Assembly: GCF_023169885.1 (NCBI RefSeq)
Contig: NZ_AP025516.1
Coordinates: 2,304,501-2,368,500 of the forward strand
Origin: Desulfofustis limnaeus
GTDB lineage: Bacteria; Desulfobacterota; Desulfobulbia; Desulfobulbales; Desulfocapsaceae
Direction: 5' to 3'
Length of the DNA stretch: 64,000 nucleotides
Shown: one piece after another, positions 29,577 to 31,792 of the stretch
Position numbering within the stretch: the first letter of the stretch is position 1
How the letters are laid out: each line of letters opens with the position of its first letter
Translations under genes and position numbers: made by a program
The notes under the pieces: model-generated
What the model saw: only the letters and a program-made list of their open reading frames with translations
What the model was told of the DNA's origin: nothing
Databases searched by the model: none

Positions 29577-29909
29577 ATGACCACTGACACCAAGAAAAAA
29601 CCGCCACGGCCGCTCACCAACGATCAGAAAAAGCAGCTACGCCGTTACGGGCACGCACTGAACCCGCTGGTGAACATCGGCAAGGAGGGTCTGACGGCCA
29701 CGGTACTGCAGGAAATCGATACGTCGCTGCAGATCAACGAACTGATCAAGGTGAAACTTCTCAACACCGCACCACTCGACAAGCACCAGGCATCCCTGGA
29801 AATTCCGGCGCACACCGGCAGCGTTCTCGTCCAATTGATCGGCAAGACACTGCTTCTCTATCGTCCGAACCCCAAACGTCCCAAAGACAAGCGGATCATC
29901 GTACGTTAG
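29577..29909 (+). CDS. yhbY: YhbY-type CRM-domain RNA-binding protein
   Basis: 110 residues: a single CRM domain with LTNDQKKQLRRYGHALNPLVNIGKEGLT, containing the GxxG-like loop, and IGKTLLLYRPN at the end. Family members associate with pre-50S ribosomal particles. AGGAG lies 14 bases and AAAGAGA nearer the ATG. It is tandem with the TraB gene. Confidence 0.9.
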   Translation: MTTDTKKKPPRPLTNDQKKQLRRYGHALNPLVNIGKEGLTATVLQEIDTSLQINELIKVKLLNTAPLDKHQASLEIPAHTGSVLVQLIGKTLLLYRPNPKRPKDKRIIVR

Positions 29910-29960
29910 TCGGACGGTCGCCGGCAGACTCACCCAGGATCGGTCAACGGTCAGCGAGCG

Positions 29961-30368
29961 CTATTTGGCTTCGGTGGGATAACCGTTATCGTCCCATAGG
30001 CGCCAACCGCCCTTGAGGGCAAAGACCGACGTAAAGCCACGATCGGAAAGCATCCGTGCCACACTGGCACTGGTGGCCTCGTTCGGTCAGGCACAATAGA
30101 GAACGATGGTTTTCCTCTGGTCGTAACGGTCGGCCCACGAAGCGACATCGCCCGGATTCTCACGGATCGCGCCGCGAATTTTCCGATCGCTGTTCCTCCA
30201 GTCCCCGCCGGTACGCACGTCGATAACCACTACCTCTTCGGACCCCAGTCGCTCAAGGAGAGCCTGCTGCTCCATGATCAACCGGTCGGCGGCCGCCAGC
30301 GGCAACGCCCAACCGATGGCCACCGAGCAAATCATGAGCACGAGCCATTTGATCATATCAATCCCCAT
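29961..30368 (-). CDS. exported rhodanese-like protein with in-frame TGA at the catalytic Cys (probable selenoprotein)
   Basis: Read through the TGA at 30087-30089, the frame encodes 135 residues ending at TAG (29961-29963). A signal peptide (MIKWLVLMICSVAIGWALPLAAA) precedes a rhodanese domain: VVVIDVRTGGDW, then IVLYCA-U-PNEATSASVARML, then FALKGGWRLWDDNGYP. U is residue 94 and occupies the active-site cysteine position of the YCxCPNEATS loop. Reading frame and family similarity continue intact for 42 codons after the TGA, and a SECIS-like hairpin follows at the right distance. Conventional gene calling would stop at 30087 and lose the active site. A nonsense mutation or sequencing error is the alternative. 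The protein would transfer or bind sulfane sulfur or selenium in the periplasm. ATG at 30356 and GTG at 30395 are alternative starts. Confidence 0.78.
30054..30073 (-). promoter_or_regulatory. bacterial SECIS-like stem-loop
   Basis: In the mRNA, GUGCC and GGCAC (5 bp) enclose the loop AGUGU, with CC/GG continuing the stem past one bulged A. The loop starts 22 bases after the UGA and has G as its second base. This fits the published bSECIS constraints (stem, short apical loop with an early G, loop about 16-37 bases from UGA). Confidence 0.6.
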
Positions 30369-30473
30369 TGTCAATTGTTCCCTGAAGGCGATCACCGCTT
30401 GGGTGAGCGTGGTTAAAATATAAGAACGGTTCCCAGCGCTGTCTCTGGCAAAACTCAGTTTCGTTGATTCTGC

Positions 30474-30502
30474 TTGACCTTCACCGGCACGGTCGGTAAA
30501 TT
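30474..30502 (+). promoter_or_regulatory. sigma70-type promoter of the CoA-transferase gene
   Basis: TTGACC (30474-30479), 17 bases, TAAATT (30497-30502). The palindrome at 30500 overlaps the -10, suggesting repression. Confidence 0.55.
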
Positions 30503-30526
30503 GTCGACAATTGCAGTATCGACAAT
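30500..30526. promoter_or_regulatory. candidate operator: ATTGTCGACAAT palindrome plus repeated TCGACAAT
   Basis: A perfect 12-bp palindrome (30500-30511) followed seven bases later by a second TCGACAAT (30519-30526). Position at the -10/+1 region fits a repressor site; the regulator is not identified. Confidence 0.5.
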
Positions 30527-30577
30527 AGTCTTACAGGGCGCCTGCGCCCACTCACCGCTCACAGGAGGATCGTCCGG

Positions 30578-31792
30578 ATGAACAGGGGATTGGAAGGAAT
30601 CAGGGTCATCGAGGTCGGCGGCGCTTTCGCCATGCCACTTGTCGGTATGCTCATGGGCAGCTGGGGGGCCGAAGTCATCCATATTGAACCGCCGAAACGC
30701 GGCGACCTGCAGCGCTATCTGCTGGCCGGCGGCATGGCCGGTTGGGCGCGTCCGCACCACGTCAACTACATCTGGGAACATGTGGATCGTAACAAGAAAA
30801 GCCTCACCGTCAACCTGGGCTCCGAGGAGGGGCAAAAGATCATCCACGACCTGGTGGCCGGCGGCGACGTGTTTCTCAACAACCTGCGCCCATACGAGAT
30901 GGAAAAATTCAATCTCGGGTATCAAACCCTGCAGGCGGTCAACCCGCGCATCATCTACGCCAACTTGACCGGTTATGGGCTGCGCGGCCCTGATAAAAAC
31001 GTCGGCGGGTATGATTCGGTCGCCTTTTGGGCCCGCAGCGGGGTCATGGATCTGATGCATGAGGCGGACATCGCTCCGAACATCTCGAGGCCGGCCTATG
31101 GCGACTCCATCACCTCGCAAAGCCTGTTGGCCGGGGTCATGGCCGCCCTATTCATCAGGGAACGCAGCGGTGTCGGCCAGGAAGTCGAGGTCTCCTTGTT
31201 TCAGACGGCAACCTTTGCCTTGGGGACCGACATCTCCGGTTGTCTGATTAGCGGGGAAGACTCGGTACGACCCTCGCGGCGGACTATGGGCAACCCGATC
31301 CGCAACATCTACCCCACCAGCGACCAGCGCTGGATCATGCTCGGCATGACCAACTCCCAACACTACTGGCCGTCCTTCTGCCAGGCCGTCCAGCAACCGC
31401 ACTGGGAACATAACCCCCGCTTCGCCACTCAGGAAGCCCGAGCCGCCAACGCTGCCGAGCTGGTCAAACTGATCGAGGAAATTTTCCTGACAAAAGCCTA
31501 TGGTCAATGGGTCGACATACTCAACAGCAACAAGCTGATCTGGTCGCCGGTGCAGACCCCGCTGGAAGTGGTCACCGACGAACAGGCGGTCGCCAACGAC
31601 TTTTTCGGCGAATGGGACCATCCGACGTACGGTCCGATCAAGCTGCTCAACAACCCCATCAAGTTGTCCAAATCCCCTGCCGAAAATCGTTGCAAGGCAC
31701 CGGAATTGGGGGAACATACGGAGCAGATCTTGACGGAGCTGGGGTATTCCAGGCGCGATATCGACCAACTCCGGGCCGACGGCATCGTCTAA
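30578..31792 (+). CDS. CaiB/BaiF family III CoA-transferase
   Basis: 404 residues. It begins LEGIRVIEVGGAFAMPLVGMLMGSWGAEVIHIEPP, the usual family III N-terminus, with the catalytic Asp region at VGGYDSVAFWARSG (about residue 150) and GVMAALFIRERSGVGQEVEVSLFQTA. These enzymes move CoA between carboxylic acids without a covalent ping-pong anhydride pool. GGAGG stands eight bases before the ATG. No acyl-CoA dehydrogenase, ligase or mutase gene is adjacent, so the substrate cannot be named. Its promoter carries a strong palindromic operator candidate. Confidence 0.9.
   Translation: MNRGLEGIRVIEVGGAFAMPLVGMLMGSWGAEVIHIEPPKRGDLQRYLLAGGMAGWARPHHVNYIWEHVDRNKKSLTVNLGSEEGQKIIHDLVAGGDVFLNNLRPYEMEKFNLGYQTLQAVNPRIIYANLTGYGLRGPDKNVGGYDSVAFWARSGVMDLMHEADIAPNISRPAYGDSITSQSLLAGVMAALFIRERSGVGQEVEVSLFQTATFALGTDISGCLISGEDSVRPSRRTMGNPIRNIYPTSDQRWIMLGMTNSQHYWPSFCQAVQQPHWEHNPRFATQEARAANAAELVKLIEEIFLTKAYGQWVDILNSNKLIWSPVQTPLEVVTDEQAVANDFFGEWDHPTYGPIKLLNNPIKLSKSPAENRCKAPELGEHTEQILTELGYSRRDIDQLRADGIV

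Follow-up and report, generated by a model that had tools for sequence, protein, structure and literature searches.

The window, a stretch of 64,000 nucleotides from the Desulfofustis limnaeus genome, carries on its minus strand a small rhodanese gene that almost certainly encodes a true selenoprotein, with a single in-frame UGA codon read as selenocysteine at residue 94 (Sec94). This reading, which strongly supports the original prediction, rests on membership of the family NF041203, conservation of the UGA, a covarying SECIS hairpin, selection past the UGA, and the presence of SelB, tRNA-Sec, and SelD in the genome. The features of the gene are as follows.

29961..30368, minus strand: selenoprotein gene of rhodanese family NF041203, 135 amino acids including Sec94, from translation with TGA read as a residue
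30288..30368, minus strand: probable signal peptide, a hydrophobic stretch with ...PLAAA before D28, read by eye
30093..30095, minus strand: Cys92 codon (TGT), favoured as the canonical rhodanese catalytic position and first residue past the strand, from DSSP of the model and the GlpE and 2hhg alignments
30087..30089, minus strand: UGA codon, predicted Sec94, second position of the CxU pair, from translation and the shared codon in 89 of 106 aligned phylum rows
30056..30070, minus strand: SECIS hairpin GUGCC-AGUGU-GGCAC, with arms 30070-30066 and 30060-30056 and loop 30065-30061

The gene and its family

Translation of the minus-strand frame 30368-29961 with TGA read as Sec gives MGIDMIKWLVLMICSVAIGWALPLAAADRLI...TIVLYCAUPNEATSASVARML...LKGGWRLWDDNGYPTEAK, followed by TAG, with exactly one in-frame UGA (U94, forward coordinates 30089-30087). 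A rhodanese frame interrupted by one TGA and reaching a normal TAG had been predicted, with no strand named, and is borne out by translation; the gene has no companion on the minus strand and lies between two plus-strand genes. The start in MGIDMIK (30354-30368) may lie four codons early, and an inner ATG (30356-30354, minus strand), whose product begins MIKWLVLM..., appears the likelier start because GGGG lies six bases upstream of it and relatives begin with MKK or MNK. Export is suggested by the hydrophobic N-terminus and an AAA-D site, both judged by eye, and the N-terminal helix (residues 4-18) has low pLDDT and lies outside the rhodanese domain in the AlphaFold model.

By its sequence the gene belongs to an already catalogued selenoprotein family. 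The protein scores 159.7 bits over 119 residues against the NCBIfam model NF041203, "rhodanese-related (seleno)protein" (rhodanese_LYCAU, cut-off 115), and 47 bits against Pfam PF00581 Rhodanese (cut-off 22.2); the second-best NCBIfam match is NF033833 ChrE, a chromate-resistance rhodanese, at 42.2 bits and under its cut-off of 120. It shares with NF041203 the LYCAU motif, the small size, and the UGA at the second motif position, and shows no real difference from the family. In the accessible part of PMC13188914, a CxU rhodanese is entered as 'rhodanese-like form 3' with the example TKB26178.1, is given the figure 1, taken here as one Sec, and is credited to reference 13 of that paper, Zhang and Gladyshev 2005. 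The accessible part of PMC9312934 enters 'COG0607 form 2', also CxU and with the same example, as a predicted family credited to its reference 11. The LYCAUPNEATS loop of the window protein, with its single UGA, matches this description, and the original statement that Sec-containing rhodaneses had been reported agrees with both entries.

The AlphaFold model, built from a 46-row alignment, has a rhodanese fold (mean pLDDT 87.9), and its best structural match by VIA-align is 3tp9_A (Z 16.9, rmsd 1.7 over 102 residues of the predicted model). Structures of persulfide dioxygenase-rhodanese, NADH persulfide reductase, and GlpE all occur within the top 20 matches; because both kinds of enzyme and GlpE are found there, the structure does not choose between a reductase and a transferase. 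GlpE itself resembles the window protein in fold (1gmx, Z 14.7), and its active-site Cys was aligned to Cys92, but as aligned it has no second Cys or Sec in the loop, and the loop of the window protein is two residues longer. The window protein falls far under the cut-offs of the NCBIfam models for GlpE (23.2 against 102) and PspE (12.5 against 102, and 12.9 against 126.3). TsoB (NF045694), a rhodanese/DsbD fusion-like protein with a UxxxxU motif, is likewise a Sec-containing protein with a rhodanese region, but it differs in motif and architecture, and the window protein reaches only 26.1 bits against its cut-off of 805. The DedA-rhodanese fusions of Proteobacteria, exemplified by L058, have an [IV]YCACPNEA[ST]A loop like that of the window protein, but with CxC; L058 is Cys-coded and has a membrane domain in front. 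The DedA check was run on L058 alone, which matches the UptA/DedA models and NF041203 (68.3 bits), all under cut-off. Such fusions are noted in the portion of PMC10127716 available to us, where the link is called unclear.

Decoding of the UGA codon

The genome encodes SelB (364.7 bits, cut-off 242.25) and a tRNA-Sec (72.5 bits, gathering score 47; ARAGORN agrees, with anticodon tca). It also holds two genes for SelD, the selenophosphate synthetase (L135 and L136), each of which has an in-frame UGA of its own (KTCGUAAK and KGAGUASK). A search for selB, selC, and selD had been proposed as a check, and all three are present. For selA, no match over the cut-off was found in the searched genome sequence, and its expected place, beside a TPR gene, lies outside that sequence. 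In a genome of the same genus selA adjoins the TPR gene, and a single-contig genome from the family has it between rRNA and the TPR gene; because the TPR counterpart borders a stretch outside the searched sequence, the selA result is not counted as evidence. Within this bacterial family selA is often near contig ends (L202, L203, and L206), with rRNA adjoining in L203 and L206, and unsearched stretches at rRNA genes can give single-contig genomes the appearance of lacking selA.

Among 395 genomes of the phylum, SelB is found in 60 of the 61 where NF041203 is matched above its cut-off (the exception is G227) and in 293 of the 334 others, which is weak evidence because SelB exceeds its cut-off in 353 of the 395. 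The proportion of non-synonymous change is lower past the UGA than before it in nine of nine chosen pairs of close relatives, as translated sequence should show, and is 0.24 after against 0.33 before for the window gene and its counterpart in the same genus, a comparison that leans toward lower values after the UGA because the part before can include a loosely held signal peptide.

Two more UGA-containing rhodaneses occur in the genome, both under the NF041203 cut-off. One, at L185:1636-3018, is a long protein in which rhodanese is matched three times and which has the motif FYCGGYTU; the other, at L186:2467-2784 on the minus strand, is a short rhodanese with FYCNUKGGGSA and no obvious signal peptide.

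The SECIS hairpin

A hairpin with an AGUGU loop that meets bacterial SECIS constraints had been predicted 22 bases after the UGA; comparison by hand confirms it, with the loop separated from the UGA by 21 nt. The consulted section of PMC13188914 describes bacterial SECIS elements as having a loop of 3-9 nt, an upper stem of 4-16 bp, a spacing of 16-37 nt, and a G within the first two loop positions, and the window hairpin fits the loop, stem, G, and spacing constraints given there, the energy limit standing outside this comparison. An Rfam scan of 29700-30700 returned nothing but a chance-level L19_leader match (E 8.1). Of 200 dinucleotide shuffles of the 81 nt around the hairpin, 197 fold less well than the native sequence (z -2.67). 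When the protein is held fixed, 37 of 200 synonymous shuffles equal the hairpin, and a second set gives p 0.16. Taken alone, the window hairpin is not beyond chance; only the comparison of relatives makes it decisive.

The full set of five pairs is possible in 87 of the 89 aligned rows that have UGA at position 94, against one of 17 non-UGA rows of the phylum (L172) and one of 77 Cys-coded rows (L055), and the loop of the best hairpin begins 21 or 22 nt past the UGA in 75 of the 89. In the alignment of these 89 rows (A1), 99.6% of cells pair, four of the five pairs have changed on both sides (31 cells), and the only broken pairs seen by eye are in L165 and L267, both CxU. None of 500 shuffles of A1 reaches the observed covariation in any of five measures; the shuffle leaves relatedness in, and slid versions of the hairpin do not exceed 61.6% of cells and five double-changed cells. 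The second loop position is G in all 89 UGA rows and the third is G or U in all 89, while the stem includes two third codon positions that hardly vary, one with C in 88 of 89 rows and the other with G in 89 of 89. The mean z of synonymous shuffles is -1.00 for the 89 UGA rows, -0.40 for the 77 Cys rows, and +0.14 for the 17 non-UGA rows, with p < 0.05 in 15, five, and none of them, respectively. Chance and a dead gene, considered as explanations of the frame, are rejected in view of the conservation of the UGA, the covariation, and the selection past the UGA.

The exceptional Cys-coded row L055 (L055:220-570) comes from a Desulfatitalea MAG and is a small NF041203 member (170.2 bits) in which TGT replaces TGA and the hairpin is intact; it probably carries a leftover SECIS after a recent change from Sec to Cys.

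Residues at the motif and the catalytic position

Relatives were collected from three sets. The 58 close genomes, the window's included, hold 21 genes in 20 genomes with exactly one TGA, counting matches that start at residue 26 or earlier and end at 132 or later, and all 21 are CxU. In the 395 phylum genomes, the 61 with a match over the NF041203 cut-off give 84 matches by count, of which 75 contain one TGA or more; the window's and 80 others were used, and G145:C28, G151:C183, and G227:C79 were left out. Seven sub-cut-off stretches were added, one of which (L187) yielded no row, and because most of them were chosen for showing no TGA, the share of UGA rows is a product of row choice and not a frequency. 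A further 77 rows of the genome_contigs set came from 80 loci kept of 134 relatives. After removal of identical rows, the alignment comprises 183 rows: 21 from the bacterium's own family, 85 from elsewhere in the phylum, and the 77 genome_contigs rows.

UGA occupies position 94 in 89 of the 106 phylum rows, the window included. The 17 others are CxS (nine), CxC (three), CxA (two), SxS (one), CxV (one), and one gap, and 11 of them exceed the NF041203 cut-off (L170-L177, L182, L241, and L246). In L241 a UGA occupies the next codon, and this row may be a UGA row out of place; L246 carries a UGA at another site, and in L182 a stop (UAA) stands at the Tyr. The genome_contigs rows are CxC without exception (77 of 77), a count biased because the set was found partly with the peptide pattern YCACPNEA. 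Homologues coding Cys at position 94, which the original prediction had proposed to look for, were thus found by alignment both within the family (L055, L170, and L171) and among the genome_contigs rows. At position 92 every one of the 89 UGA rows has C or U, and 16 of the 17 phylum rows lacking UGA have C, the exception being the SxS row L177. A clade of CxS and SxS paralogues (L173-L177, L181, L182, and L246), from four genomes of one family (f22), is without UGA at position 94 and without the five-pair hairpin. The existence of CxS and CxA paralogues implies that the second residue of the motif is not indispensable to the fold.

The predicted model and three alignments bear on which residue occupies the catalytic position. 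DSSP of the AlphaFold model gives a strand at residues 87-91 and a helix at 98-109, the strand ending with Tyr91 and Cys92 opening the loop. In a profile alignment, Cys92 falls on the active-site Cys of GlpE, with a two-residue insertion after it. A phmmer alignment with 2hhg likewise places Cys92 at the active-site Cys, whereas an ungapped alignment with 6mxv places residue 94 there. With two of the three alignments in agreement, the favoured reading is that Cys92 would be the nucleophile at the canonical place and Sec94 its partner in the CxU pair. The original prediction had put the UGA exactly at the active-site Cys of the YCxC loop; it stands insofar as the UGA replaces the second Cys of YCxC, and does not stand as to the canonical place, which two of the three alignments give to Cys92.

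UxU relatives

Both motif positions are UGA in 11 of the 89 UGA rows (L148, L154, L158, L169, L189, L226, L227, L229, L230, L236, and L249). All 11 have two UGA codons six bases apart and a single intact SECIS hairpin, whose loop lies 21 nt after the nearer codon and 27 nt after the farther one. Two of the UxU proteins were sampled for their match to NF041203 and reach 145.8 and 178.6 bits. In a tree built with both motif positions masked, the UxU label needs at least eight changes, which may be gains or losses and five of which are forced by well-supported (starred) branches, although this tree, with 108 rows on 126 columns and an unsettled bootstrap, is a weak one. A literature search on rhodanese, UxU, and selenoprotein found no paper on a UxU rhodanese selenoprotein, and a search on rhodaneses with several Sec residues showed no UxU rhodanese in titles or the starts of abstracts.

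Tentatively, and with somewhat less confidence than an even balance would warrant, the active-site pair could be seen as a redox couple in which the use of selenium is being tuned, with the CxU of the window protein as the one-Sec stage. If this is true, the canonical residue has switched between Cys and Sec repeatedly, one hairpin serves two UGA codons, and the catalytic bridge of UxU proteins is a diselenide.

Proposed function

The probably exported selenoprotein, with its single rhodanese domain, may act as a sulfane-sulfur (persulfide) reductase through a Cys92–Sec94 bridge and not as a plain carrier, a reading that we hold to be evenly balanced. SelB with Sec-tRNA-Sec, guided by the hairpin 21 nt downstream, would decode the UGA as Sec94. 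Cys92 would take up sulfane sulfur from thiosulfate, polysulfide, or a persulfide to form Cys-S-SH, and Sec94 would attack this persulfide, freeing sulfide and leaving a Cys92-S-Se-Sec94 bridge to be re-opened by a thiol-redox partner in the periplasm. We infer the reductase chemistry from the CxU pair together with established rhodanese and selenol chemistry; the decoding is the firm part. The handling of sulfane sulfur or selenium named in the original prediction is likewise an inference. Paired action of residues 92 and 94 is suggested by the retention of C or U at position 92 in the UGA rows and of C in nearly all the non-UGA phylum rows, and by the tree, in which position 92 has switched between Cys and Sec several times. 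The reductase reading is rated lower because these changes may run in either direction, toward Sec or away from it. Clustering of the gene neighbourhoods gave no gene for the redox partner, most neighbours having no annotation.

A multi-pass membrane protein, recognized by eye, is present at 13 of 20 own-family loci, including L252:4425-5723 on the minus strand. In the seven loci checked it lies directly upstream of the Sec rhodanese on the same strand; it is absent from the window's locus and from the same-genus locus. Searches of two of the 13 by Pfam and one by NCBIfam gave no match over the cut-off.

The foremost alternative, possible but rather unlikely, is that the same selenoprotein is a plain sulfurtransferase or a sulfur or selenium carrier, in which one residue of the CxU pair passes on sulfur or selenium with no net reduction. 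The predicted rhodanese fold and the canonical Cys92 are consistent with this, as is the retention of Cys92 in all nine CxS rows, which is expected if one Cys suffices. However, such an enzyme has no need of a second, more reactive selenol, yet 89 rows have U at position 94 and the 77 rows of the pattern-biased set have C there.

CxU and CxC pairs are good ligands of soft metals, and it is conceivable, though improbable, that the pair binds a soft metal or metalloid (Hg, As, or Cu) in the periplasm and so protects the cell. The sub-threshold match to the chromate-resistance model ChrE (NF033833) points this way, and metal roles are mentioned for some other selenoproteins in the accessible text of PMC13188914; against it, clustering gave no conserved neighbour of that kind, which weighs little with neighbours mostly lacking annotation. 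Still less probable is a regulatory switch in which both products matter and ribosomes stop at the UGA when selenium is low. Sec decoding depends in general on the supply of selenium, which agrees with such a switch, but the product cut at residue 93 would, in the model, lose the helices and strand that follow in the domain. That the gene is dead, carries a sequencing error, or ends at a true stop is scarcely credible: the ordinary code does give an open frame at 30087-30395 (minus strand), 102 amino acids long and ending at the UGA, but the same codon recurs in 89 rows, the hairpin covaries, selection continues past the UGA, and the Sec machinery is present. The persulfide reductase acting through the Cys92–Sec94 pair remains the preferred reading.

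Significance

For a family that the available part of PMC9312934 lists as predicted, the present analysis adds comparative proof in the form of a covarying SECIS hairpin that is lost in the non-Sec paralogues. The catalytic assignment shifts from a lone Sec to a Cys–Sec pair, as favoured by the alignments, and gene callers without Sec support would truncate or overlook such genes. The UxU relatives, a side result, are rated as worth more than the window gene itself, and the series of CxU, UxU, CxC, CxS, and CxA motifs within one family constitutes a natural experiment on the benefit that selenium brings to a rhodanese.
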